Source: a virus. From it: 30,653 nucleotides of DNA. Positions 2 to 30,169 of this stretch are shown here, piece after piece. The notes below the pieces were generated by a model that saw only the letters and a program-made list of their open reading frames with translations, did not search any database and was not told the origin of the DNA. Positions within the stretch are counted from its first letter, which is position 1, and every line of letters begins with the position of its first letter. The position numbers were made by a program, and so were the translations under genes. The stretch is from positions 1 to 30,653 of IMG/VR virus record IMGVR_UViG_3300008267_000330, one strand, 5' to 3'.

Positions 2-1855
2 ATCAAGCGCCAAGGCGGCTCGGAGATTTACATCCAGCTGTCCTCAGTGAAGTGCCGCGCCGCGACGAGCTGGTTGCGTGATACCTTGTTGGGCACTGGC
101 TCTGACAAGCCGTGGAGCCTTGAGGCGACACCTGAGCCCACACTGCCCCCTGAGTTGGTCCAAGAGCTGATGGCCAGCATGCAGCAGCAGTTGCAGGCGC
201 TGATGGAGCAGGGCATGCCCATGCCAGACCCCACACAGTTGCGCGAGTCCGCAGCCCAGATGAAAGACGCAGCGATGCGCCGTCTGCGCGAGGAAGCCAA
301 CGAGCGCGTTGACCGCATGGAACTCAAGATGGAGGACCAGCTCATCGAGGGTAACTGGACCGACGCCCTGAATGCGTTCTTGGACGACATCGTGACGTTC
401 CCCTACGCCGTGCTCAAAGGCCCGGTCAAACGCAAGCGCAAAACCATGGCTTGGCAGAACGGCCAGCTGGTGCCATCCGAAGAGATTCGCAACGAGTGGG
501 AGCGGGTTGATCCGTTCATGCTCTACTGGGCACCATGGGCTTCTGACATTCAGGACGGCTTCATCGTTGAGCGCCACCGCATGACTCGTGAAGACCTGCA
601 GGCTCTGATGGGCGTGCCCGGGTACAACGACGACGCGATCCGCTCCGTGCTCAACAGCTTCGACATGGGCAACCTGAACGAGTGGCTGTGGACTGACAGC
701 GCCCAAGCTACGGCTGAAGGCAAGGACACCACGCAGACCATCTTCACAACAGACCTGATCGACGCCCTGCAGATGTGGGACAGCGTCAAGGGCAGCGACC
801 TGCTGACTTGGGGTTTGTCGAAGAAAGAGATTCCTGACCCAGACCTGAACTACCCCTGCGAGGTGTGGCTGGTCGGCTCCACGGTAATCCGCGCTGTGCT
901 GAACTACGACCCGCTGGGCCGCAAGCCGTACTATGTGACGTCGTACGAGAAAGTCCCCGGCGCTGTGGCTGGTAAGGGCGTGACTGACCTGTGCCGTGAC
1001 TCCCAGAACATGGTGAACGCCGCTGCTCGCAGCTTGGCCAACAACATGGGCATCAGCTCTGGCCCGCAGGTGGGTGTGAACGTGTCGCGCCTGCCCCCGG
1101 GCGAGGACATCACAGAGATGTACCCTTGGAAAATCTGGCAGTTTCAGAGCTCGGAGTTCAACGACGGCTCGCAGCCGCTTCAGTTCTTCCAGCCTAACAG
1201 CAACGCTCAGGAACTCATGGCCGTGTTCGAGAAGTTTTCTGCCCGTGCGGACGAGGACACCATGATCCCGCGCTACATGACTGGCGACCCCTCGGGTGGC
1301 GCTGGCCGTACATCGTCTGGTCTGTCGATGCTGATCTCCAACGCTGGCAAGGGCATCAAGCAGGTTATCAGCAACATCGACCGCAACGTGATCGTGCCGT
1401 CTATCGAGCGCCTGTACCAAGACAACCTGCGCTACAGCAAAGACCCAGACCTGATCGGTGACGTCAAGGCTGTGGCCAAGGGTGCTACCAGCTTGGTGGT
1501 CAAGGAAGCCGAAGCCGTGCGCCGCAACGAGTTCTTGCAGATCGTGCTCAACAGCCCAGTGGCCCAGCAGATTGTGGGCATGGACGGTGCAGCGGAGCTC
1601 CTGCGCGAGCAGGCCCGCAACCTGAGCGGCAACGTGAACCGCATCGTGCCAGACCGCCCAACGCTCACAGCCATGCAGACTCTGCAGCAGCAAAACGCTC
1701 AACTCCAAGAGCAGCTGGCCATGATCGCGGGCGAATTGCAAGGCGGCGCTCCGGGCATGACGCAGGGCCCAGCTCCAAAGAATATGCTGCCTGATGGTAG
1801 CCAAGTTGGGGGACGTGAGGGAAATATGATTTCTCCGCGCCCTAATGGTGTTTGA
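2..1855 (+). CDS. Portal protein (5' partial)
   Basis: The reading frame is open from the window edge, so the N-terminus is missing; 617 residues are visible. Portal proteins form the dodecameric ring at one head vertex through which DNA is packaged and released, and to which the tail attaches. The first visible residues (GGSEIYIQLSSVKCRAA) followed by SWLRDTLLG resemble the N-terminal part of large podovirus-type portals. A Gln/Met-rich helical stretch follows (about nt 155-345). A second, Gln-rich helix near the C-terminus (nt about 1663-1740, LQQQNAQLQEQLAMIAGEL) fits the crown or barrel helix of portals. The gene precedes scaffold and capsid genes, the usual order. A GTG at 47 could be read as a start, but the family-like sequence runs upstream of it. 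The TGA stop lies inside the -35 box of the next gene's promoter. Identification is by recognition of sequence style and gene order, not by a search. Confidence 0.85.
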   Translation: MKRQGGSEIYIQLSSVKCRAATSWLRDTLLGTGSDKPWSLEATPEPTLPPELVQELMASMQQQLQALMEQGMPMPDPTQLRESAAQMKDAAMRRLREEANERVDRMELKMEDQLIEGNWTDALNAFLDDIVTFPYAVLKGPVKRKRKTMAWQNGQLVPSEEIRNEWERVDPFMLYWAPWASDIQDGFIVERHRMTREDLQALMGVPGYNDDAIRSVLNSFDMGNLNEWLWTDSAQATAEGKDTTQTIFTTDLIDALQMWDSVKGSDLLTWGLSKKEIPDPDLNYPCEVWLVGSTVIRAVLNYDPLGRKPYYVTSYEKVPGAVAGKGVTDLCRDSQNMVNAAARSLANNMGISSGPQVGVNVSRLPPGEDITEMYPWKIWQFQSSEFNDGSQPLQFFQPNSNAQELMAVFEKFSARADEDTMIPRYMTGDPSGGAGRTSSGLSMLISNAGKGIKQVISNIDRNVIVPSIERLYQDNLRYSKDPDLIGDVKAVAKGATSLVVKEAEAVRRNEFLQIVLNSPVAQQIVGMDGAAELLREQARNLSGNVNRIVPDRPTLTAMQTLQQQNAQLQEQLAMIAGELQGGAPGMTQGPAPKNMLPDGSQVGGREGNMISPRPNGV

Positions 1856-1881
1856 CTTTTTTTGAATTTGTTGTATAGAAT
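1852..1881 (+). promoter_or_regulatory. Sigma70-type promoter for a leaderless mRNA (P1)
   Basis: TTGACT (1852-1857; 5 of 6 to consensus), an 18-bp spacer, then TAGAAT (1876-1881; 5 of 6). The spacer is T-rich. The ATG of the next gene begins 6 nt after the -10 box, about where transcription should start, and no SD precedes it. The same geometry recurs at 21057-21095. The -35 box overlaps the portal stop codon. Confidence 0.7.
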
Positions 1882-1887
1882 CCACAC

Positions 1888-2130
1888 ATGAAGATTTTTG
1901 TAGGCCAAAAGCCTGATCGGCAGCACATGCAAGCGTTGATTCGCTGCAAGCTGCAAGAAAACGAGCCGCTGTTGGCGCTGTTTCGGATGAAACTGGAGGA
2001 GACTAAAAACTCCTTGATGGTTGCAGAAGAGCCGCACCGCATACACCGTCTCCAAGGTCAGGCCCAAGCCTTATCAGATTTCCTCGAAGCGGTTGAAAAA
2101 TCGTCAGAGGTTTTCGACCGGATCAAATGA
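1888..2130 (+). CDS. Small protein of unknown function (80 aa), moron-like unit
   Basis: I do not recognise the function. The product is a compact, charged and probably all-helical 80-residue protein (MKIFVGQKPDRQHMQALI...). It has no signal peptide, membrane segment or cysteine cluster beyond a single Cys. The start is ATG 1888: the bases before it (CCACAC) contain no SD, but the -10 box of P1 ends 6 nt upstream, so the mRNA is probably leaderless. The TGA stop sits inside a terminator hairpin (2119-2140). The gene therefore has its own promoter and terminator, between portal and scaffold. That arrangement is known from phage morons and from small early- or separately expressed genes. A structural role cannot be excluded, because small helical proteins do occur beside portals. 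Confidence 0.75.
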   Translation: MKIFVGQKPDRQHMQALIRCKLQENEPLLALFRMKLEETKNSLMVAEEPHRIHRLQGQAQALSDFLEAVEKSSEVFDRIK

Positions 2131-2140
2131 TCCGTTTTTT
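2119..2140 (+). terminator. Intrinsic terminator overlapping the stop of the 80-aa gene
   Basis: CGGATC (2119-2124), loop AAAT, GATCCG (2129-2134), then six T (2135-2140). The 6-bp stem is perfect. The stop codon TGA (2128-2130) lies in the loop and right arm, so a terminating ribosome would cover the hairpin. The short stem suggests only partial termination of read-through from the portal gene. Confidence 0.65.
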
Positions 2141-2220
2141 GTAAATCCGCGCAAACCATTACGTAGACGGCAGACCGCAGTAGGAGCCAGAAGCAGAGTT
2201 GGAGCGACAAGGAGAATTGA

Positions 2221-3180
2221 ATGGCATTGCCAAGACAAGTAGAAGCTCAGTTACGTGAACTGGAAGCACTGGAAAAGCAGCTGACCGACGCGCAGAACCC
2301 TGCCCCCGCAGACCCTACGCCTAACCCAGCAGAGCCTCCCCAAGACCCACAGCCCGCGCCTGCAGAGCCAAAGCCTGTTGAGCCAACGCCGACACCGACT
2401 GAACCAGTCGTAGCGGAAGAGAAATGGGAGCAGAAGTACAAGACCCTCAAAGGTATGTACGACGCCGAAGTTCCTCGCTTGCATGCAGACTTGCGTGACC
2501 TCAAGGCCCAAGTGGATAACCTCCGCAAAGCCAGCGAGACCAAGCCGGTTGAGCCTGTGAAGCCCGCAGTCGCTGAGAAGTTGGTGACTGATGCTGATGT
2601 TGAAGCATTTGGTTCGGACCTGATTGAGGTCCAGCGCAAAGTTGCCCGCGAAGTGGCAGCAGAGTTTCGTGGCGAACTAGACGCCATGCGTGCCGAGAAT
2701 GAGAAGCTGCGCGAGCAGCTGACCAGCACCGGTACTCAAGTGTCTGAAGCCAGTTTTGAGCAGCGCCTGTACCGTATGGTGCCGGACTTTGAAGCAGTCA
2801 ATGCTGATCCCAAGTGGATTGCTTGGCTGAACGAAGTGGACCCGCTGCTCCGAGCTCCACGATCTTCTGTTGCACAACAAGCGTTCAACCGAGGCGACGC
2901 CGAAGGAGTAGCACACTACGTGGCGATGTTCAAAAAGAGCGTTGCGCCAGTAGAGCCCACTGCCGACAAAACCGAAGAGCTTGAGCGTCAAATTCAGCCG
3001 AATCGTAGTGCCACAAGCACACCCCCTACCTCTCAAAAAGGTAAGGTCTACACCAACGCAGACATCGAAAAGATGTTCCGCAAGGCGACTGATCTGGGTG
3101 TCAAAGGGCGCGTCGACGAGGCAAAGAAACTTGAAGCTGAAATTGATGCTGCGTTCATGGAAGGTCGCGTAACCGCGTGA
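2221..3180 (+). CDS. Scaffolding / capsid assembly protein
   Basis: 319 residues. It lies directly before the major capsid gene, as scaffolds usually do. Scaffolds guide coat subunits into a procapsid and then leave or are cleaved. The sequence fits: a short N-terminal helix (residues 1-25), a long Pro/Ala/Glu/Thr-rich linker (about 26-66), and a coiled-coil region (about 67-175, rich in E, K, L and R). A second helical part follows, then a basic C-terminal segment with YTNADIEKMFRKA and DEAKKLEAEIDAAF. Small C-terminal helical segments of scaffolds often bind coat protein. ATG 2221 has a good SD (AAGGAG) 6-7 nt upstream. The 90 bases before it hold the preceding terminator and no promoter I can defend. 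The protein has no cysteine and is strongly acidic, as expected for a scaffold. Confidence 0.8.
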   Translation: MALPRQVEAQLRELEALEKQLTDAQNPAPADPTPNPAEPPQDPQPAPAEPKPVEPTPTPTEPVVAEEKWEQKYKTLKGMYDAEVPRLHADLRDLKAQVDNLRKASETKPVEPVKPAVAEKLVTDADVEAFGSDLIEVQRKVAREVAAEFRGELDAMRAENEKLREQLTSTGTQVSEASFEQRLYRMVPDFEAVNADPKWIAWLNEVDPLLRAPRSSVAQQAFNRGDAEGVAHYVAMFKKSVAPVEPTADKTEELERQIQPNRSATSTPPTSQKGKVYTNADIEKMFRKATDLGVKGRVDEAKKLEAEIDAAFMEGRVTA

Positions 3181-3230: not shown

Positions 3231-4229
3231 ATGGCTGCAGTTTATCCCGTCCAATCGCCGTTCAATACGAACCCTTCGTACTCCGGCGCTTTCATCCCCA
3301 CCCTGTGGTCCGGCAAATTGCTGGCCAAGTTCTACCAGAACACCATGCTGTCGGAAATCGCTAATACCGATTACGAAGGCGAGTTGAAGAACCAAGGCGA
3401 TACCATCCGTATCCGCTTGGCCCCTTCGATCAGCATCTCCGACTACACCGTTGGCCAGAACCTGTCGTACGAAGTCCCCACTCCTATCTTCCAAGATATG
3501 CAAGTGAACAAGGGCAAGTACTTCGGCGTGCAAGTCAACGACGTGCTGGCCTATCAGTCCGACATGAACTTGATGAACATGTTCACTGAAGACGCCGCCA
3601 AGCAGTTGAAGATCGCCATCGAAAACGAAGTGTTCTTCAACAACATGGTCACTGAAGGCCCTGCCGCTGCCAACGAAGGCGCTACCGCTGGTGCTATCTC
3701 TGCTGCCTACAACTTGGGCACAGACGTTACCCCCATCGACCAAGCCACTCCTGAGAACGTCTTGAAGGCTATCCTGCGTATGTCTACAGTGTTGGACGAG
3801 CAGAACGTGCCTGAAGATGGTCGCTGGTTGGTTATCAGCCCCTTCGACCGTCATTTGCTGATGCAATCCAACATCGCTCAAGCCTACTTCACTGGCGACG
3901 CTCAGTCGACCATCCGTAGCGGCAAGATCGGTATGCTGGACCGCTTCACTGTGTACGTGTCCAACTTGCTGCCACGCGGCGCTGCTGGCAAGGCACTGGT
4001 TGCTGGTTTGACCGACCCCGCCACTGGCGGTGCTGTGTCCAACGCCAAAGCTCGTCGCACCATGGTTGCTGGCACTAAGGCAGCAATGTCTTTCGCCATG
4101 ACTGTAAACAAGACTGAGCCTCTGCGTAACCAGACTGACTTCGGCGACATCGTCCGTGGTTTGGCTGTGTACGGTCGCAAGACTGTCAAGCCAGAAGCTC
4201 TGGTCGTTGCCCAAGTCGGCACAGCCTGA
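3231..4229 (+). CDS. Major capsid protein
   Basis: 332 residues. Gene position after scaffold, and phrases such as YEGELKNQGDTIRIR, ISISDYTVGQNLSYEVPTP and KYFGVQVNDVLAYQ, match podovirus-type HK97-fold coat proteins, whose N-terminal arm and E-loop region carry this GD.I.I....I...DY pattern. Later segments (WLVISPFDRHLLMQS, about residues 200-215; GKIGMLDRFTVYVSN, about 233-247) fit the P-domain core of the same family. The start ATG 3231 follows a perfect AGGAGG SD (3220-3225) with 5-nt spacing, the strongest in the window, consistent with a very abundant product. A GC-rich terminator follows the stop within 10 nt. Codon choice is more uniform than in neighbouring genes (GGC/GCT/AAG/AAC), as expected for high expression. 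Confidence 0.93.
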   Translation: MAAVYPVQSPFNTNPSYSGAFIPTLWSGKLLAKFYQNTMLSEIANTDYEGELKNQGDTIRIRLAPSISISDYTVGQNLSYEVPTPIFQDMQVNKGKYFGVQVNDVLAYQSDMNLMNMFTEDAAKQLKIAIENEVFFNNMVTEGPAAANEGATAGAISAAYNLGTDVTPIDQATPENVLKAILRMSTVLDEQNVPEDGRWLVISPFDRHLLMQSNIAQAYFTGDAQSTIRSGKIGMLDRFTVYVSNLLPRGAAGKALVAGLTDPATGGAVSNAKARRTMVAGTKAAMSFAMTVNKTEPLRNQTDFGDIVRGLAVYGRKTVKPEALVVAQVGTA

Positions 4230-4235
4230 TGAACT

Positions 4236-4264
4236 GGGCCCCTTCGGGGGCCCTTTCTTTTTTT
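4236..4264 (+). terminator. Strong intrinsic terminator after the capsid gene
   Basis: GGGCCCC (4236-4242), TTCG tetraloop, GGGGCCC (4247-4253), then TTTCTTTTTTT to 4264. Seven G:C pairs, a stabilising loop and a T-tract make this a textbook terminator. It ends the capsid transcript and should allow only partial read-through to the next gene. Confidence 0.92.
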
Positions 4265-4282
4265 ACCCTTTTGGAGATTCTC

Positions 4283-4621
4283 ATGCCTAATACCACTTCC
4301 TTTCCCCGCAGCATTGGTGGCTACGAAGCCGTCACAGCTGGTACAACTCAAACTCAAGCCGGTGCTACCCAGCTCGCAGGCGCCATCAGCTTCGTCACAA
4401 CTGGCAATGCCAGCGACGGCGTGCGTTTGCCTGCTGACTTGGCTCTCGGCGACGTTATCTACGTCGTGAACAGCTCTGGCGTGGCTCTGAACGTGTATCC
4501 AAACACTGGTGGCAAGATCAACAACGGTTCTGCCAACGCAGCCAAAGCCTTGGCCGCTAACATGTCTGGTGCTTACATCAGCTTGGGCGGTGCTGACTGG
4601 GCCGCTGTTCTCAGCGCCTAA
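4283..4621 (+). CDS. Small head protein, possible capsid decoration protein
   Basis: 112 residues, rich in Ala, Gly, Thr and Val, with the beta-strand-prone pattern VIYVVNSSGVALNVYPNTGGKINNGSA in the middle. No signal peptide or membrane segment. The start is ATG 4283, with TTGGAG (4271-4276) 6 nt upstream. An in-frame ATG at 4229 overlaps the capsid stop, but using it would place the terminator inside the coding region and it has no SD. Small proteins of this composition are common right after phage capsid genes and may decorate the head surface. The role is inferred from position and composition only. The gene lies between two TTCG-loop terminators, which suggests that it is expressed by read-through at a lower level than coat. 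Confidence 0.75.
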   Translation: MPNTTSFPRSIGGYEAVTAGTTQTQAGATQLAGAISFVTTGNASDGVRLPADLALGDVIYVVNSSGVALNVYPNTGGKINNGSANAAKALAANMSGAYISLGGADWAAVLSA

Positions 4622-4634
4622 TCGGTGGCACAAT

Positions 4635-4660
4635 AAAGGGGCTCTTCGGAGCCCCTTTTT
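4635..4660 (+). terminator. Second intrinsic TTCG-loop terminator
   Basis: AAAGGGGCTC (4635-4644), TTCG, GAGCCCC (4649-4655) and five T to 4660. The 7-bp GC stem extends by A:T pairs. It has the same loop as the terminator at 4236, and the flanking A and T runs make it potentially active in both directions. Confidence 0.9.
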
Positions 4661-21056: not shown

Positions 21057-21086
21057 TTGCAGTGACCGACTGACATAAGCCATAAT
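21057..21086 (+). promoter_or_regulatory. Sigma70-type promoter for a leaderless mRNA (P2)
   Basis: TTGCAG (21057-21062; only 3 of 6), 18-bp spacer, CATAAT (21081-21086; 5 of 6). The next ATG lies 6 nt later with no SD. Spacing and the AATCCAC.CATG region are nearly identical to the promoter at 1852-1881. The weak -35 may be compensated by an activator or phage factor. Confidence 0.62.
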
Positions 21087-21092
21087 CCACCC

Positions 21093-21509
21093 ATGCCCCA
21101 CCTCGTCTACGACCAGAAAGAACGCATCGGCGCATGGGTCGCTGAGCAGGTCAACCAGAACGCTGACTGGGGCAGCTTCTACGCCATCGGCGTTGTGAGT
21201 GGTGAAGATGTCTTGGCTGGTGTGGTCATCAACAACTACAACGGGGCCAACGCCACATGCCACATTGCCATCGTCAGGCAGACCAAACAGATCATCCCGC
21301 TGCTCCAAGCGGTGTGTGACTACGCGTTCAGGCATTGCGGTCTGAAAAGATTGACTGGCATGGTTCCCTCAAATGAGCCTAAAATACTGGCATTTGACAA
21401 ACACCTCGGTTTTGAGGAAGAGTTCGTTATGAAAGACGGCGCACCCGGTGCCGACATGCACGTTTTGGTAATGCGGCCTGACACCTGTCGGTGGCTGCGC
21501 AAGGAGTAA
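21093..21509 (+). CDS. GNAT-like N-acetyltransferase
   Basis: 138 residues. The C-terminal half (LLQAVCDYAFRHCGLKRLTGMVPSNEPKILAFDKHLGFEEE, residues about 70-110, given here as segments) carries the helix-strand-Asn-LGF arrangement of the acetyl-CoA-binding core of GNAT enzymes. The Q/R-rich VRQTKQIIP segment before it occupies the position of motif A, but a standard R/Q-x-x-G-x-G/A is not obvious, so cofactor binding is not certain. Small GNAT-like proteins between tail and ejection genes are known in podoviruses; the substrate is unknown. The start is the leaderless ATG 21093 after P2. The AT-rich cassette ends just before it and GC returns to normal. Confidence 0.7.
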   Translation: MPHLVYDQKERIGAWVAEQVNQNADWGSFYAIGVVSGEDVLAGVVINNYNGANATCHIAIVRQTKQIIPLLQAVCDYAFRHCGLKRLTGMVPSNEPKILAFDKHLGFEEEFVMKDGAPGADMHVLVMRPDTCRWLRKE

Positions 21510-21512
21510 ATT

Positions 21513-22457
21513 ATGGGCGGTAAATCTAGTCCTCCACCACCAGACTATTCTGGCATGGAAGCTCTCGCACGGGAGCAGCTCGACTTCTCCCGGCAGCAGT
21601 ATGCAGACATCATGCCATTGGCTCGGCGCGTCGCAGAGCAACAGATGGCTACGCAGAACGAACTCATGCAGATGGGGCGAGAAGACCGCCAGTATCAGAT
21701 GGAAACTTTCCGTCCACTGGAGCAAGGGCTAGTGCGAGATGCTGAACGGTTCAGCACTGAAGGGTTCCGTGAGCAACAAGCCCGTGATGCCGCCGCTGCA
21801 ACGGGTCGTGCCTTTGGTGTGATGCAAGACGCTTCGGCTCGTGCAGCCGCTTCGCGTGGTGTGAACCCGAACTCCGGCGCTGGTATGGCGCTGCAGTCTC
21901 AGAACATGCTGGGTCTATCCGCACAACGTGCCAATGCCATGACAGGCGCTCGCAACCAAGCAGAACAGATGGGTTTTGCCCGACGTATGGACGTTACTGG
22001 CCTTGGTCGTGGGTTAGGCGGTGCGGCTCAAGGCGCGTATGGCGCTGCTACTGGCGCAGGTTCTGCGGGCATCAACACATCCATGGCCCCCGGCGCACAG
22101 CAGATGCAAGGTATGCAGCAGGCTGGTCAGACCATGGGCAATATCGCTACAGGCCAAGCTGGTATGTACAACGCTGCGCAAAACCGCAGAGGCGAAATGT
22201 TTGGTGCTGTGCTTGGCGCTGGTGCGACAATTTTCTCAGACCGCCGCCTGAAGCAGAACATTGAGTTGGTTGGCCGTGATGAGCGCACCATGTTGCCACT
22301 GTACGAGTTCGAGTACATCAACGGTTCCGGTCGCCGCTTCCTTGGCGTGATGGCGCAAGACGTTGTAGAGTCGCACCCTGATATGGTCTTCACGATGCCT
22401 GACGGCTTCATGGCAGTAAATTACGCCGGTCTCGGTTTAGAAATGGTGGAGGTCTGA
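21513..22457 (+). CDS. Internal virion protein with S74 intramolecular chaperone domain
   Basis: 314 residues. The first 240 are Gly/Ala/Gln/Met-rich with long helical runs (MGGKSSPPPPDYSGMEALAR, QQYADIMPLARRVAEQQMAT), in the style of small internal virion/ejection proteins such as the T7 gp14 class. Residues 242-314 form a C-terminal S74-type chaperone: SDRRLKQNIELVG, LYEFEYING, RFLGVMAQDVVESHPDMV. In endosialidase-type chaperones a Ser and Lys pair drives self-cleavage. Here Ser242 and Lys247 are the likely pair, so the mature protein would be about 241 residues. S74 domains normally end tail fibres and help them trimerise, so their presence on an internal-virion-like protein is noteworthy. 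SD AAGGAG lies about 7 nt before ATG 21513. Confidence 0.75.
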   Translation: MGGKSSPPPPDYSGMEALAREQLDFSRQQYADIMPLARRVAEQQMATQNELMQMGREDRQYQMETFRPLEQGLVRDAERFSTEGFREQQARDAAAATGRAFGVMQDASARAAASRGVNPNSGAGMALQSQNMLGLSAQRANAMTGARNQAEQMGFARRMDVTGLGRGLGGAAQGAYGAATGAGSAGINTSMAPGAQQMQGMQQAGQTMGNIATGQAGMYNAAQNRRGEMFGAVLGAGATIFSDRRLKQNIELVGRDERTMLPLYEFEYINGSGRRFLGVMAQDVVESHPDMVFTMPDGFMAVNYAGLGLEMVEV

Positions 22458-22458
22458 T

Positions 22459-24192
22459 ATGAGCATAGCCGCAGGATTTCAATCGGGGATAGCCCTTGGC
22501 CGGGCTTTTAACGAAGGCAGAGAACGACGTCGTATTGAAGGCATTCGCACTGCAACGCCTGAGACTTCTCAAGGGTACACAGCCGAACAAGGCCAGCAGC
22601 TGGAGGCCATGGCCAGCGCCATTAACCCAGAAACTGGTCGCCCGTACTACAACGTGCAAGCTGGTCAAGGCGGTAACTACACCATTACTCCAGACTTCAC
22701 CGAAGCGCAAATTCCACGCACAGGCATGGGCACAGACGTAGTCGGAATCGACCGCACTCAGCTCCAGCCAGTAGCGTTTAACCAGCAACGCGTCACTAAC
22801 TTCTTGGGCCGTAGGGTTGAGGGTGAGCTGACCCCTGATCGCATCGAAGCCATGCGCAGTCGCGCTATGGCTGAAGGCCTGTCCGATCCTCGCCAACGGT
22901 TGGCCGCTATTGCAGAAGCTACTCGCCTAGAGCGTGAAGCTGAAGAAGCCCCACTGCGTCGTCAAGCGCTGGAAACCCAAGTTGAAGCCGGAAAGCTCGG
23001 TCTTGACAGAACTAGGCAAGAGTTGACCGCTGGGGAACGCACCGCTGCCGCTGCTAAGCGCATGGACGACTTTAACGCATGGCGCTCACAAAATCCGCAA
23101 GCTGGCTTTGCAGAAATTAACGCCGAAGTGCAGCGACTGGGCATGGGTGTAGACGAACAGTTTAAAGTTGCCTCGTCCCTGACTGGCATTAAAGAGCAGG
23201 AGTTCAAGAACTCGCAGATGCGTATCCGCGACTTGGTAAAGAATCAAGGGCTGGATGGTTTGCTCAAAGCCCACAAAGAAAGCAATGACCTCGACCCCGG
23301 CTCTCATTTTGAAGTCATCCGTGGCAAAGGCGGCACTCTATCTCTGAACCGTGTGGATACAGCTACAGGCAAGGTCATCCAGCCGAACGTGTTCTCTGGT
23401 AGCGAAGCTGAGACTACTGCGTACCTCAACAAAGCTGCTATGGACCCAGCCACCATCATCGACTTCACGATGAATTTGGCGAAGAACAAATCTGCCATTG
23501 CTGCGCAAGAAGCACAGATTCGCGCAAGTGACTCCGCTGTTGGGCTCCGTAACGAGCAGATGCGAATGCTCAGGACACAAGCTGCTGGCAACGCCGAAGC
23601 GCAGGACATCCGTGCTCGTTACGAAGCGCTTACACCGGAAGAACAAACTGGCCCTGCTGGTCAAGGTTTGATTCGCCAGTTCAACATGGCAAACGCCAAA
23701 GCTGGCACGCCAATCCCGTTGGGTGCAGCACCACGCGCTGCTACTGGTCCAGCACGTGAGCTCTCAGACCTCGACAAAGAGAACCTCAGATACTACCGCG
23801 ACTGGGTCAAAGACCCAAAGAACGCCAAACTGCCACAGGGGCAGAAAGACGCGTACGCTGCAGAGCTAGGCGTCACAGAGTTTATCAAGCGAGACACTGC
23901 GGGTCCGACAACTGGTGTTGGATCAAATCCTTATGCTGCGCCACAGCAAGGTATCAATACTACTCGCCCACCAGCTGCCGCTGCTCCTGCCGCTGCTCCT
24001 GCCCCCGCAGCATTGACTACGGAAAACACAAAGTTGCTGAACCGTGCTGGCAACGTGGGCTACAACGTACAATTACCAGATGGCACGACACGAGTAATGT
24101 CGATCTCGGAGCTCAACAGGGTAGGCTACCAGTTCCCGGGTGGTACTGGGCTACAGCGGGCATGGTACGAAGATTTGCTGCCACGTCGCTAA
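22459..24192 (+). CDS. Internal virion protein, helical (577 aa)
   Basis: 577 residues, Ala/Gln/Glu/Arg-rich and mostly helical. The N-terminal 70 residues are GFQSGIALGRAFNEGRERRR and similar; coiled-coil-prone stretches lie at about 130-230 and 340-420. A Pro/Ala-rich linker (about 485-520) precedes a short C-terminal domain (VQLPDGTTRVMSISELNRVGYQ). Position between the S74 protein and the giant ejection protein corresponds to the second internal virion protein of T7-like phages, part of the periplasmic conduit for DNA. Similarity is by position and composition only. SD GGTGGAGG (22445-22452) lies before ATG 22459, 1 nt after the preceding stop. Confidence 0.65.
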   Translation: MSIAAGFQSGIALGRAFNEGRERRRIEGIRTATPETSQGYTAEQGQQLEAMASAINPETGRPYYNVQAGQGGNYTITPDFTEAQIPRTGMGTDVVGIDRTQLQPVAFNQQRVTNFLGRRVEGELTPDRIEAMRSRAMAEGLSDPRQRLAAIAEATRLEREAEEAPLRRQALETQVEAGKLGLDRTRQELTAGERTAAAAKRMDDFNAWRSQNPQAGFAEINAEVQRLGMGVDEQFKVASSLTGIKEQEFKNSQMRIRDLVKNQGLDGLLKAHKESNDLDPGSHFEVIRGKGGTLSLNRVDTATGKVIQPNVFSGSEAETTAYLNKAAMDPATIIDFTMNLAKNKSAIAAQEAQIRASDSAVGLRNEQMRMLRTQAAGNAEAQDIRARYEALTPEEQTGPAGQGLIRQFNMANAKAGTPIPLGAAPRAATGPARELSDLDKENLRYYRDWVKDPKNAKLPQGQKDAYAAELGVTEFIKRDTAGPTTGVGSNPYAAPQQGINTTRPPAAAAPAAAPAPAALTTENTKLLNRAGNVGYNVQLPDGTTRVMSISELNRVGYQFPGGTGLQRAWYEDLLPRR

Positions 24193-24208
24193 TGAACACG
24201 GAGTAAAA

Positions 24209-27200
24209 ATGGCTATCTACACCCTCCAAGACCTACGCAACGCTGTACCGCAGGACATGAAAGGGTTGGCGGATGATGCCCTCGTCCGTGACTATAGCCA
24301 ACGTATCGGCAAGTCTTTTGAAGAAACAGCGGACTACCTCGGGTTAAAAGCACGCGGCACCGTTGCTGAGATGGGCCGTCAAGCTCTAGGTGGTGCTGTC
24401 GTAGACCTGCCAAAGATGGTAGGCCAAGGCTTGCAGTACACAGGCATTGCCCCTGAGTTTGGGCGTGAGCTGGCTGAAAGCGCCGAAGCACGTGCGCCAG
24501 AGTATGCCCCTGACATGCGTGGTCGTGGTTTGCTCGGCCAAGCTGGTGTCTTGGGTGCCCGTGGTCTTGCTCCAGTTGCAGCTACGCTGCCGTTTGCATT
24601 TGTTCCCGGTGGCCAAGTTGCCGCACCGTTGGCGGCGGCTACGCTGTTCGGCACCTCCTCAGCCCAAGAAACCTACGACAAGTTAATTTCCCAAGGTGCG
24701 TCTGAGCAAGACGCCACTGATGCAGCTCGCCGTGTTGGCTTGATCCAAGGCCCGCTGGAAGGTGTTGCTACGGCTGTTGGCCTACGCGCTGCCCGTCCTC
24801 TGGCAACTGCGCTCGGCGCTGCCCCTCGCACAACAGCAGGCATTGCTGGTGCATTAACTGAGACCGCTGTCGCTAAACCGTTCCTCAAAGGCATGGGCGT
24901 TAACTTGGCTGTGCAGCCGGGTACTGAAGTCGCCCAAGACGTGGGTAGTTCGTTGGTGGAGCAAGCCTATGGCGCAGCCCCTGAAGACCTTGGTGAGATA
25001 GCTAAACAGTCTGCTCTTGGTGGTGTTGGCTTGACGCTTTTGCTTGGCCCACTCGCAGGCGGCGCAGCAATCACCCGCGCTCGCCGTGCACAGTCGCTCA
25101 AAGACGCTCTGTACAACCCTGACACCCCTGTCGAGACCCGCGCTAAGGCCATGGACTTGGTTATGGGCGAAGCACGTCGCCAAGGCGTTGCTGAGCAGGA
25201 TGTGGACACTTGGTTCAACCAGCAACTGGAGCTCGAAGACGCTCGTACTGCCGCCCTCCAAGCCGCCGAGCAGCAAGAAAAGACCAAGCAGCTCAATTTG
25301 CTTGGCGAGAAAGCTCAGGAGCTGGAAGGCCTGCAAGGCGGTATGTTTTCGTCGCTCGACCAACAGCGTGCGTTTGAGCAAGGCTTGGCTGGTGTTCAGG
25401 TTGATACTCCTTTTTCGTCGCTCGACCAACAGCGTGCGTTTACGCAAGGCCTTGAGACTGCACGCGACAACAGCATCGCCCGCGTAGGCCAGCAATTCCA
25501 AGACTTGATGGGCGACCGGGCCAGCACGTTGATGCAAGCCCAAGACATTGGCCAACAAGCCCAGAGTATTCTGGAGCCACAGCAACGTGGCTTAGCTGCG
25601 GCTACACAGGCCGGAGAACAGTGGCAAGAGGTTCGTGCTGGTCAGTACCGCACCATGATGGACATTGACGACATGGGTCAAGAGTGGCAAAAGCTGGCCA
25701 AAGACTTGCCGCAGCCTATCACTGGTGAACTCAGCCGTGCACAGAAGGCCGCTCTTCGTGGCCCAGAGGGCAAACGCTTTAAGCCAACTTCTTCTCCGTT
25801 TGTACCTACTGGCCAAGGCCCTGCATCCACAACACTGTTGGAGCCAGTCCAAAACACATTACCGGTTCAAGTCCCAGCCGCTGCACCAGCTCCAAGCAGT
25901 TTGCTCTCCGAGCGCCCTGCGGAACCCATTACTCCTGTCGGCGCATCAGAAGCAGTTGCCGCCGCTTTGCCCGCTGCACAACCTGCAGCGGGCGTTTCTT
26001 CTATCGCAACTCCCGGAGCACCAAGTGGCACTCAAGCCCCTCAAGCCAAGCAAGCAAAAACGCAGCGAGCGAAAGCACCAGCAGCCCCTGCAGCCCCAGT
26101 CGTAGAAGAAGACAAGCCGCTGCTCAAGCTGATCGAAGACGCTGACAACACGGACGTTGGTAACCCCTTGCCTGCTTCTGTGCGTGGCGCTGAGACAGTG
26201 CGTGCGCCCGGTCGTGCGTCGATGACCACTGAAATGCTCAAGAAGGTCCGTGACGCCCTGCTGCGCCCAAGTGGCAAAGTGGGCACCAAGGCTGGACCCA
26301 AAGAGCAGCGCATCGTCGATGCACTGGGCAACTTCGCCTCTGCGTATAAGACGTACCTTGACCAAGGCGGGCAAGCGTTGTCACGACGCAACAAAATTCC
26401 AAAAGCCAAAACCGCAGCCCAGTTTGCAGAAGAGCAAGTTGCAGGCGTGCAAGTTCAAGCTGCCAACGTCCAAGCCGCTTTGGCCGAGCTCGGTGAAGCT
26501 GTTGGTGGCAACGCCAAGGACATCGAAGCTGTGGTTCGCCTTGTCAAAGACATGGTGCAGGGCAAGATTGTTGCCCCCGGTAGGACTCGCGCTGAAGTAA
26601 TTCAGGCTGGCAAGAAGCTAGACACAATGCTGTCTCAGGCATGGGCCGCTGCCAAGCGCGAAGCCTTCATGCAAGCTCAGCCTGACACAGCGGACATCCG
26701 TGGCGGCGCAGTGCGCGTTGCCCGCGAACAGGCTGGTGAGGTATCACCTCTGGAAAAAGCAGCCACTGAAGGTGTGACTAGCCCGAATCCATTGGGTAAA
26801 AGCGAAACGCTCACTGGTTTGCAAGGTGTCCTGCAGTACATCCGCAACTCTGGCACCCCGTTTGAGCGCATGCTCGCAGCCACGCTGCGCGATGTCATTG
26901 GTGACCAGATGAGCGATGTGAAGCTGGAGTTCATCGCTGAGGGCGACCCACGCTTTGACCCCAAAACCAACACTGTCTACCTGCGCAAGAACGAGTCGCC
27001 AGAGGTGGCGTTGCACGAGGCGCTGCACGCAGCCTTGCAGTCGTTCATCTACAAGAACCCCAAAGACCCCATGGTCATGCAGCTCAAGCGTTCGCTCAAG
27101 GCTGTCGTCGGGTACAAGGGTGAGCTGACTGGCAAAGCCAAAGAAGTGCAAGACCTGCTCAAGAAGTTGGTGGCTGAGAAGAACGAGCTCGACGCTGTTC

Positions 27201-30169
27201 TCGAACTGGTGTCCTACGGCACCACGCTCAACGAGTTCCGCAAGGCGCTTGAGGCCATGCCGTCCAAGGGTGTACCTCAGACATTCCGCGAGTCGGTCAA
27301 CAGCGTATGGCGCTACATCAAAGCCGCCATGGCTCGCATGCTGAACAAACCCAACACTGTTGCAGCCGATGTGCTGGACAGCAGCCTCGCACTGCTCGAA
27401 AAAGCCAGCAAGGTCACGCCTGAGAAGAATGCTGGCAACATCCTTGAAGCTGCTGTACAGACTACCAAGCCAATCAGCAACGCCAAGATCGCTGAATCTT
27501 TGGGTATGTCCGAGGTCGACTACACACGCTTTGCTGAGAAGAACCTTGTCAACGTGCTCAGCACTCAACGCCTGTTTGAAGCTGTCGGCTGGAGCCAGCA
27601 AAACGCTGAGAAGCTCGGCGAGAAGTTGGCCAAGTGGGGCCGCGATACAGCCAAGAAGTACCCCGGTGCTGAGATCGTTGCTGGCCTGCTGAACTCACGC
27701 TATCACGGTAACCGTGACGTGTCTACGATCCAAGACAACTACAAGTTCGACAAGAACGTAGGCTACCAAGTGGCTGAGCGCATCGCCAACTACATCACCA
27801 GCCAGCCTGCAGCGCAGGTCAATGCTGTGTTCGCCTACCTTGACGGCAACACTCGCGCACTGGATGGTGTCAACGACGGCGGCAAGCTCAAAGGCCTCGC
27901 TGACAACATGAAGAAGTGGTTCGACCTGTATGTGTCTGAGCTGTCTCCAGTTGAGCAGCAGTTCTTCCGCACTCGCAAGTTCTCTGAGAACCTGTTGTTC
28001 CCCAGCAAGACTGAAGAAGTTGCACGCAACCAGTTCGGCCTCGGCAAGATCAACGAAGTGCTCGGCAAGAAGTCTGTATTTGAGGCAAACATCGACGAGA
28101 ACTGGTTTACAAAAACCCCTGCTGGCGATGTCATTTTGGACGGCGATTTCTACCAAGTTTTCAAGACTACTGGTACGCTCAAAGACGCCAAAGAGCCCGC
28201 TGGGTTCATGTCCGCTAGTCGCTTTGCAGAGATGAATAGCAAAGACCCGCTCGGCTACGCTGTCGACACCACGCGCAAGTGGATCATGGAGAAAGGCGAC
28301 GTTGACAAAGGCAAGTTCAAGTTCACCACGAACACGACAGCCCGCGAAAAGATCGCCGACGAAAAGGCTGACGACCTCGCCAACGCACTGCGCAACACCA
28401 TGGCTGCGCTGGCCAACAACTACGCCAGCAAGAACTTCATCAGCGCCATGGCCAAGATGGGCTCCGAGGATAGCCCTGCGCCGCGTGTAGCCTTTGACAG
28501 TGTTGCGCAGATCAACAAAGAGTACGGCATCAATGTGCAGGACGACCAAGTTCTGAAGGTGTCGCTTGAGATGGCACGCTCTGAGAAGACAAAGGACTTG
28601 TATCGCATGTCTGGCACTTGGGTCCAGCTGCCGAAGTATGACGTCTATGGAGCACTCTCCGAGAAGTTTATCCCCGGCCCTGTGTGGAACTCGATGATTG
28701 ATATGTTTGACCGACAGCCAGTCGTCAACGTACGCGCCTTGAACACCACAATGCGCTGGTTCAAGAAGTCGAAGACCATCTACAACTTCGGCACGCACGT
28801 CACCAACGCCGCGTCAAACATCACCATGGGCATGATGCACGACATCTCGTTCAAAACGATGCGCGATGCTACCAGCCTGTTGTTCCGCTACGAGGTTCGT
28901 CCACAGACCTTGAGCAAATCAGAACGCGAGATGGTCGAAGCCTTTATCAACTCCGGTGCCATGCTGGGTGACTTCTCCAGCGCTGAAGTGAAAGAGGCTA
29001 TTTACGCTGCACACGAAAGCAATTTGCGAGGCGGCAACGACGACTCTTTGTCTAAGCGCGTAGCTGGCTGGATGGGCATCGAGAAGAGCAAAGCTGAGGC
29101 AATCGACCGCGTCGTGCAAAAGGGCAAGGCTGCTGGCCTGAAGGCTGACGATGTTCTTTCTCAAATTTACGCGTTTGAGGATAACGCCTTCCGCATGGCA
29201 GCGTTCATGAAAAAGACTGGCGAACGCCAGATGGACAAAGGCCTCAAAGCACCTACGGACGAAGTGTTCCGCGAAGCAGGCCAGTTTGCGCTCAAGGCTT
29301 TCGGCGACTACGACATCGACGCCAAGGCAGTGAAGGCTCTGCGCCAGACAGTCATGCCGTTCATCTCATGGGGTTACGCCATGGGGCCAGTGATTGCTCG
29401 CATTGTGCTGACACAGCCTTGGAAGATCGCCAACATCATGATGGCGTACTACCTGCTTGAAGCTGCGATGAGCAGTTCTGCCGATGGCGAAGACGAGGAA
29501 CTTCGTCAGGCTGGCCCTGCGTATGTACGCGAGCGCATGTTCTTCGGTGCCGTAGGCCCATACATGCACATTCGTATCCCTTTTATGGGTGACGCAGAAA
29601 ATCCCGTGTACTACAAGCTGGGTGACTATTTCCCGCTGGCATCCATGACCAAGGGTTTGCCTAACGGTTTTATGGGGCAATCGTGGTTCCCAAGCATGCT
29701 CACACCCAGCGGTCCATTTGTGTCGGCTATCGCAGGGTTTGTGCTGGGTGTCGACCCCTACACTGGCAAGTCAATCCACCAGCCGACCGACACAGAGTGG
29801 CAAAAGCTGTGGAACACCACCAAGTTTGGCTACGACATCATTGCTCCACCAAGCATCAACAGCCGTCAGATCACTCGCGCAGACGACTTCTTTGAGGGTA
29901 AGACTGGCATCACTGGCTCTGAGCCTTCAGGCCTCGTGTTTGCCCGTGCGTTTGGCCTCAAGATGTACGACTACAATGTGGTCGAGTCAGAAGCTATCCA
30001 AGAAATTGCAGCCAAGAAAATCCAGCGTGAGTTCAAGACTGCTATGAATAAAGCCAAGCAGAACGAATACCGCAAGGGTTCACCAGACTACGATGAACTT
30101 GACCGTACGCTCGCAGATTTGCAAGAGCGCATGGAAAAGGAAATGGCCAAGGCCCAAGGAGAAGAGTAA
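24209..30169 (+). CDS. Giant ejection/internal virion protein with zincin motif (1986 aa)
   Basis: 1986 residues from ATG 24209 (GGAG 6 nt before). The open frame continues to a TTG or GTG at 24140, but that overlaps the previous gene and lacks an SD. The N-terminus (LADDALVRDYSQRIGKSFEETADYLG) is typical of giant podovirus internal proteins. Hydrophobic parts are at about 107-150, 268-288 and 1717-1755 and may insert in membranes. At residues 936-940, HEALH in VALHEALHAALQSF is the HExxH zinc site of a metalloprotease, with Glu999 (LELVSYG) a plausible third ligand. Two 22-residue repeats (SSLDQQRAF) are at 380-423, and an Ala/Pro/Lys linker at about 615-650. Such proteins are injected ahead of DNA in T7 (gp16, with a transglycosylase instead). 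A protease could open the cell wall or modify host proteins. The function of the remaining 1000 residues is unknown. Confidence 0.75.
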   Translation: MAIYTLQDLRNAVPQDMKGLADDALVRDYSQRIGKSFEETADYLGLKARGTVAEMGRQALGGAVVDLPKMVGQGLQYTGIAPEFGRELAESAEARAPEYAPDMRGRGLLGQAGVLGARGLAPVAATLPFAFVPGGQVAAPLAAATLFGTSSAQETYDKLISQGASEQDATDAARRVGLIQGPLEGVATAVGLRAARPLATALGAAPRTTAGIAGALTETAVAKPFLKGMGVNLAVQPGTEVAQDVGSSLVEQAYGAAPEDLGEIAKQSALGGVGLTLLLGPLAGGAAITRARRAQSLKDALYNPDTPVETRAKAMDLVMGEARRQGVAEQDVDTWFNQQLELEDARTAALQAAEQQEKTKQLNLLGEKAQELEGLQGGMFSSLDQQRAFEQGLAGVQVDTPFSSLDQQRAFTQGLETARDNSIARVGQQFQDLMGDRASTLMQAQDIGQQAQSILEPQQRGLAAATQAGEQWQEVRAGQYRTMMDIDDMGQEWQKLAKDLPQPITGELSRAQKAALRGPEGKRFKPTSSPFVPTGQGPASTTLLEPVQNTLPVQVPAAAPAPSSLLSERPAEPITPVGASEAVAAALPAAQPAAGVSSIATPGAPSGTQAPQAKQAKTQRAKAPAAPAAPVVEEDKPLLKLIEDADNTDVGNPLPASVRGAETVRAPGRASMTTEMLKKVRDALLRPSGKVGTKAGPKEQRIVDALGNFASAYKTYLDQGGQALSRRNKIPKAKTAAQFAEEQVAGVQVQAANVQAALAELGEAVGGNAKDIEAVVRLVKDMVQGKIVAPGRTRAEVIQAGKKLDTMLSQAWAAAKREAFMQAQPDTADIRGGAVRVAREQAGEVSPLEKAATEGVTSPNPLGKSETLTGLQGVLQYIRNSGTPFERMLAATLRDVIGDQMSDVKLEFIAEGDPRFDPKTNTVYLRKNESPEVALHEALHAALQSFIYKNPKDPMVMQLKRSLKAVVGYKGELTGKAKEVQDLLKKLVAEKNELDAVLELVSYGTTLNEFRKALEAMPSKGVPQTFRESVNSVWRYIKAAMARMLNKPNTVAADVLDSSLALLEKASKVTPEKNAGNILEAAVQTTKPISNAKIAESLGMSEVDYTRFAEKNLVNVLSTQRLFEAVGWSQQNAEKLGEKLAKWGRDTAKKYPGAEIVAGLLNSRYHGNRDVSTIQDNYKFDKNVGYQVAERIANYITSQPAAQVNAVFAYLDGNTRALDGVNDGGKLKGLADNMKKWFDLYVSELSPVEQQFFRTRKFSENLLFPSKTEEVARNQFGLGKINEVLGKKSVFEANIDENWFTKTPAGDVILDGDFYQVFKTTGTLKDAKEPAGFMSASRFAEMNSKDPLGYAVDTTRKWIMEKGDVDKGKFKFTTNTTAREKIADEKADDLANALRNTMAALANNYASKNFISAMAKMGSEDSPAPRVAFDSVAQINKEYGINVQDDQVLKVSLEMARSEKTKDLYRMSGTWVQLPKYDVYGALSEKFIPGPVWNSMIDMFDRQPVVNVRALNTTMRWFKKSKTIYNFGTHVTNAASNITMGMMHDISFKTMRDATSLLFRYEVRPQTLSKSEREMVEAFINSGAMLGDFSSAEVKEAIYAAHESNLRGGNDDSLSKRVAGWMGIEKSKAEAIDRVVQKGKAAGLKADDVLSQIYAFEDNAFRMAAFMKKTGERQMDKGLKAPTDEVFREAGQFALKAFGDYDIDAKAVKALRQTVMPFISWGYAMGPVIARIVLTQPWKIANIMMAYYLLEAAMSSSADGEDEELRQAGPAYVRERMFFGAVGPYMHIRIPFMGDAENPVYYKLGDYFPLASMTKGLPNGFMGQSWFPSMLTPSGPFVSAIAGFVLGVDPYTGKSIHQPTDTEWQKLWNTTKFGYDIIAPPSINSRQITRADDFFEGKTGITGSEPSGLVFARAFGLKMYDYNVVESEAIQEIAAKKIQREFKTAMNKAKQNEYRKGSPDYDELDRTLADLQERMEKEMAKAQGEE
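25346..25441 (+). repeat. Two exact 30-nt direct repeats within the ejection gene
   Basis: Bases 25346-25375 and 25412-25441 are identical over 30 nt and 66 nt apart (22 codons, in frame). They encode FSSLDQQRAF twice. Exact base identity, including wobble positions, points to a recent duplication or to gene conversion within the protein. Confidence 0.9.
25969..25993 (+). other. Perfect 10-bp hairpin inside the ejection-protein gene
   Basis: GCCCGCTGCA (25969-25978), 5-nt loop CAACC, TGCAGCGGGC (25984-25993), followed by GTTTCTT. This is terminator-like in shape, but the T-tract is interrupted and it lies within coding sequence (the Ala/Pro linker). Possible pausing, RNA-processing or partial-termination site; it may also be chance from Ala/Pro codons. 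Confidence 0.5.

Follow-up and report, generated by a model that had tools for sequence, protein, structure and literature searches.

Two predicted leaderless gene starts in an uncultured short-tailed phage, one of them kept whichever enzyme gene follows

Results

The window (the whole stretch of DNA analysed, an IMG/VR record of 30.7 kb) belongs to an uncultured short-tailed phage and carries structural genes, including those for the portal, a putative scaffold, the major capsid protein and the tail (Table 1). The nearest named phages are remote (capsid 43% identical, Rhizobium phage RHph_TM3_14A), and the GNAT-type acetyltransferase of the window is 32% identical to that of Lessievirus phages; close uncultured relatives number in the dozens. 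In the search for a host, which is probably proteobacterial, bacterial genomes were scanned twice and yielded no relative. A temperate lifestyle was considered and set aside, as a tyrosine integrase (PF00589) is absent from the 12 relatives searched. A 2009-aa ORF (window 24140-30169) has no Pfam match; Lessievirus-like relatives have giant DarB-like proteins at this place.

Table 1. Genes and sequence elements at the two predicted leaderless starts of the window
Feature	Position	Strand	Remarks
Portal gene	2-1855		
-35 box TTGACT, gene 1888	1852..1857	+	Overlaps portal stop codon (1853-1855); TTGAC[A/T] in all relatives
-10 region TATAGAAT, gene 1888	1874..1881	+	TATAGA (1874-1879) overlaps TAGAAT (1876-1881)
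80-aa gene "1888"	1888..2130	+	Predicted leaderless; small helical protein
Intrinsic terminator CGGATCAAATGATCCG followed by TTTTTT	2119..2140	+	Stop codon of gene 1888 inside hairpin; compensatory changes in relatives
Putative scaffold gene	2221-3180		
Major capsid protein gene	3231-4229		
TTGCAG, proposed -35, GNAT gene	21057..21062	+	3/6; not conserved; probably not functional
-10 region of GNAT gene, TAAGC and CATAAT (21081-21086)	21076..21086	+	T(-17), A(-16), G(-14) kept in relatives
GNAT-type acetyltransferase gene, phrog_4470	21093..21509	+	Predicted leaderless; SET-domain gene in slot of other relatives
Shine-Dalgarno sequence AAGGAG of gene 21513, next after GNAT	21501..21506	+	Kept in relatives; internal contrast
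Virion protein gene with S74 chaperone domain	21513-22457		Large genes further on

No Shine-Dalgarno sequence (SD) precedes gene 1888 or the GNAT gene, whether in the window or in relatives. The initial annotation had read both starts as one geometry of -35 box, 18-nt spacer, -10 box and 6 nt to ATG, and the letters are indeed in place (TTGACT, 18 nt, TAGAAT, CCACAC and ATG at 1888; TTGCAG, 18 nt, CATAAT, CCACCC and ATG at 21093). Its claim that all remaining genes have an SD or are coupled to an upstream gene also holds, as the other starts of the window have an SD or overlap or abut an upstream ORF (coupling being judged by inspection). AATCCACNCATG occurs without mismatch in two places of the window, both of them these starts, and a -10 box (at least 5/6) lies 6-7 nt before ATG at 2 of the 28 gene starts, again these two, compared with a background of 4 such cases among about 885 other ATGs (binomial P = 0.007). 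A mere chance likeness of the two starts could point to the fact that the window alone gives no smaller P than this, and that the 12-mer is no commoner than in shuffles when up to 2 mismatches are allowed. However, as described below, the starts are conserved in dozens of relatives although the flanks change, and the distances show a sharp peak, which makes chance scarcely credible.

The region upstream of gene 1888 was compared among relatives (50 distinct sequences, plus a more divergent set), with 70 capsid loci reaching this far. Each of these loci (70/70) has TTGAC[A/T] and, 6-9 nt ahead of the start codon, a box of the form TATA[A/G]A or TANAAT, and lacks an SD. The hexamers of the window match sigma70 at 10/12 positions, and those of relatives converge on the consensus. 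In several lineages the spacers are unrelated (e.g. L172, L188, L220, L231, L066, L077, L082), and selection on the elements, rather than mere block descent, is the simplest reading of promoter elements that are kept amid such spacers. The majority of the divergent relatives have the spacing TTGAC[AT]-17-TATA[AG]A, the clade of the window has 16 nt to TATAGA or 18 nt to TAGAAT, and two lineages (L172/L003 and L231) fit TANAAT with a spacer of 19 only; save for these two, hexamers 16-18 nt apart, as in a sigma70 -35/-10 promoter, are found throughout. Because the majority of the divergent relatives keep the TATA[AG]A form, the working register at gene 1888 may be TTGACT-16-TATAGA, with 8 nt to ATG. 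Transcription is expected to start about 7 nt after a -10 box. The predicted leader in the window is 0-2 nt under either register, and for every register among the relatives the expected start is the A of ATG or lies within about 3 nt of it.

Operator-like inverted repeats, noticed by eye in the spacer of some relatives, did not go beyond shuffles and did not recur elsewhere in the same genomes, and were rejected. Promoters of a T7-type phage RNA polymerase were likewise dismissed, as the hexamers fit sigma70; a search for RNA_pol gave no match in 12 relatives, a weak result, as the control search was equally without match. It might be argued that transcription comes from farther upstream, that the boxes are incidental or serve another regulator and that an SD-independent leader is used; leadered genes without an SD do occur in bacteria. 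Yet no other conserved promoter element lies just upstream, and at gene 1888 hexamers, spacing and distance converge on the sigma70 consensus in unrelated contexts, which makes such an origin very unlikely.

In relatives, the hairpin of the gene 1888 terminator carries paired substitutions that compensate each other (GGATC/GATCC to GAATC/GATTC in L032 and L225; GCGGTT/AACCGC in L231), and its T-tract is kept, although short in some. With its own promoter and its own terminator, gene 1888 fits the earlier suggestion of independence from late read-through, which we retain for this gene; its mRNA would be little more than the ORF and the terminator. Purifying selection acts on the reading frame (dN/dS about 0.12), and the structure model of the 80-aa protein is small and helical (pLDDT 83). 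The protein has no Pfam match and only marginal PHROG matches, a fold search gave no clear match apart from one uncharacterised phage protein, and a profile comparison with the 80-aa protein that Rhizobium phage RHph_TM3_14A encodes at the corresponding place showed no similarity. Promoter and terminator of its own would suit a moron, but the gene is present in 70/70 capsid loci and is thus a core gene.

Between the terminator and the scaffold gene lies a strongly conserved non-coding block (window 2141-2200), GTAAATCC.GCAAACCATTA.GT..ACGGCAGACC, in which no good sigma70 promoter was seen. A further terminator-like hairpin, GGGGCTCTTCGGAGCCCC followed by TTTTT (window 4638-4660), stands 3' of gene 4229-4621; it is clear by eye and was missed by the terminator scan.

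At the GNAT gene, 54/64 distinct upstream sequences have CATAAT at exactly 6 or 7 nt from the ATG, many relatives being closely akin, so that such counts overstate independence. Among the other sequences, CATAAT stands 8 nt from the ATG in one, and L093, where the context differs, has TAGAAT at 6 nt. Any -35 and the flanking tail gene vary freely; the hexamer, T(-17), R(-16) and G(-14) alone are kept. These positions resemble an extended -10 element (TG at -15/-14 or TRTG from -17 to -14), but -15 is A and not T. No conserved -35 hexamer was found among the relatives at this gene, and hence no sigma70 -35/-10 pair. Of the paired -35 boxes in the initial annotation, that of gene 1888 is real, whereas TTGCAG has no such standing (Table 1). 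Because the -35 of gene 21093 is not conserved, the two promoters do not form one class, and a single promoter rule for both had to be given up: gene 1888 has a -35/-10 promoter, and that of gene 21093 is -35-less. Nor can the shared CCAC or the 12-mer serve as a signature, since most GNAT relatives read ACGCAC(C) there; the stretch from box to ATG is variable at GNAT, and AATCCACNCATG was for this reason discarded as a conserved motif. The scan of relatives, proposed at the outset as a check, did show conservation of the -10 box and of its spacing from ATG, and mostly also of a C just before the A of ATG.

One could accept gene 1888 alone as leaderless and have the GNAT gene expressed mainly by read-through and reinitiation after the upstream tail gene, CATAAT acting as a weak internal promoter or marking a conserved boundary of recombination. 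Besides the lack of a conserved -35, the replacement of the upstream tail gene right up to the conserved block agrees with this, and so do relatives without the box, most of whose GNAT copies begin 2-8 nt past the upstream stop codon, close enough for translational coupling (L159, an exception, has no box, starts 18 nt past the upstream stop and shows no close coupling). However, CATAAT and its distance of 6-7 nt persist while the stop-to-start gap ranges from 14 to 40 nt, the TAGAAT that replaces it in L093 still lies at 6 nt, and a different gene keeps the start of the GNAT slot. We therefore regard the restriction to gene 1888 as unlikely, if not to be dismissed lightly.

This different gene encodes a SET-domain protein (PF00856), found at the GNAT position before a related virion-protein gene in G006, G004 and others from a further scan. 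CATAAT lies 6 or 7 nt before its ATG in 8/8 records that cover the start (L287 being read from the upstream stretch). Two unrelated enzymes thus have a common predicted leaderless start, and the start appears to belong to the position and not to the gene, whichever enzyme is encoded. The virion protein encoded next differs in its N-terminus according to the slot enzyme, MGGKSSPPPPDYS standing with GNAT and MSAVVS... or MSAIAA... with SET (L279-L287 versus window 21093-21513), hinting that the slot enzyme and the neighbouring virion protein were swapped together.

Distances between a -10 box (at least 5/6) and ATG were collected for 932 predicted genes of the window and 12 near-complete relatives. 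They peak at 6 nt (17 genes) and 7 nt (3 genes), as compared to about 1.3 genes per nearby distance, orthologues not being independent. Seventeen of these 20 genes belong to the families of gene 1888 and GNAT, and an eighteenth is the SET gene of the GNAT slot; further leaderless candidates in the relatives, this SET gene aside, were singletons only. A second peak near 22-23 nt stems from another promoter, TTGACC-16-TACAAT, which lies upstream of the portal region in 12/12 relatives (L243-L278), gives leaders 22-38 nt long, most of which carry an SD, and is likely the structural operon promoter. The same genomes would accordingly hold leaderless and leadered starts in sharp contrast, as also illustrated by the SD of the gene that follows GNAT.

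Discussion

Box, distance and absence of an SD are kept in many relatives despite replacement of spacers and upstream genes, and the original proposal that both mRNAs are leaderless, or have a leader of at most about 3 nt, is upheld on these grounds. That most GNAT copies lacking the box lie close behind the upstream stop also agrees with it. We infer from these features the 5' ends, the polymerase and the translation route, as well as any benefit. Both genes are, with good probability, transcribed from -10 boxes near the start codon, most likely by the sigma70-type RNA polymerase of the host, such that the mRNA would begin at the AUG or 1-3 nt before it. Messages without an SD leader would then take the leaderless route, in which ribosomes bind the 5'-terminal AUG. 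Gene 1888 would be a self-contained unit, with a -35/-10 promoter that begins in the stop codon of the portal gene, an ORF read from a leaderless message and a terminator that takes in the stop codon of this ORF. The slot of gene 21093, between exchangeable tail genes and internal-virion-protein genes, would be served by a -35-less leaderless promoter for either an acetyltransferase or a SET-domain protein, an entry point independent of the variable upstream gene. Against this explanation stand the GNAT promoter itself, which has no recognisable -35 and a hexamer starting with C, and L159, in which both the box and close coupling are absent. A more far-reaching idea, that leaderless initiation is a second translation channel for certain genes and that the slot enzyme (acetyltransferase or SET) modifies the ribosome or the adjacent virion protein, the slot keeping the start, strikes us as improbable.

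Both leaderless mRNAs of phages and -10 boxes placed 6-7 nt ahead of ORFs have precedents in kind, and a general remark on the former has been made (PMC5312081). Limited open-access literature was covered, in which we found no description of these two starts, of their conservation or of the gene-independent slot. The comparison of sequences indicates that, in a phage family otherwise using SDs, leaderless starts have been retained through long divergence at only two positions, and at one of these regardless of which enzyme gene occupies the slot. Why a phage should preserve leaderless initiation for particular genes thereby becomes a testable question. Moreover, predictions of start codons and operons that rely on the SD will misread such loci.

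A repressor gene offers one precedent: the mRNA of lambda cI made from PRM, a sigma70 promoter, begins at the AUG. There leaderless expression belongs to strict autoregulation, whereas no such role is indicated for the phage genes studied here. In Deinococcus, -10-like motifs are typically found 6-7 bp before ORFs that lack a ribosome binding site, and a -35 is not needed (PMC12340547). These Deinococcus-Thermus genes with a '-10 region adjacent to ORF' are like GNAT in requiring no -35, but make up about a third of the genes of the bacterium, as against two positions in an SD-using phage genome (PMC12340547). Middle and late mRNAs of Thermus phage phiYS40 are leaderless (PMC3594737), and the middle and late promoters of Thermus phage P23-45 belong to the extended -10 class and suffer less from the block that phage gp39 imposes on -35 recognition (PMC7403470). 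Both cases are alike in that phage genes are expressed from leaderless mRNAs (phiYS40) or from promoters not reliant on a -35, and differ in concerning most middle and late genes in a host rich in leaderless genes, unlike the two isolated starts described here, in a probably proteobacterial host. That the GNAT promoter might be used in the manner of the P23-45 extended -10 promoters under gp39 is speculation by analogy. In the betaproteobacterium Burkholderia cenocepacia, 72 genes have a transcription start site that coincides exactly with the start codon and is directly preceded by a promoter motif (PMC4603805); these are chromosomal and experimentally mapped, whereas the phage starts are predicted from sequence.

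The closest comparison is with the GNAT 'moron' of Lessievirus phages (JC1, PMC9144972; DC1, BcepMigl), which is of the same GNAT family and likewise stands before a virion-protein gene. A -10-like box is found upstream there too (TAGAAT in DC1 and BcepMigl), but 25-29 nt before the ATG, so that a leader of about 20 nt is expected, as compared to the 6-7 nt between box and ATG in the group of the window. This comparison suggests that the leader may have been lost at GNAT in the window's group. In Parlo, Itty13 and ZX1 (L236, L238, L242) a short inverted repeat of the GTTTGC..GCAAAC type directly follows the -10-like box of GNAT, about 10-30 nt before the start.
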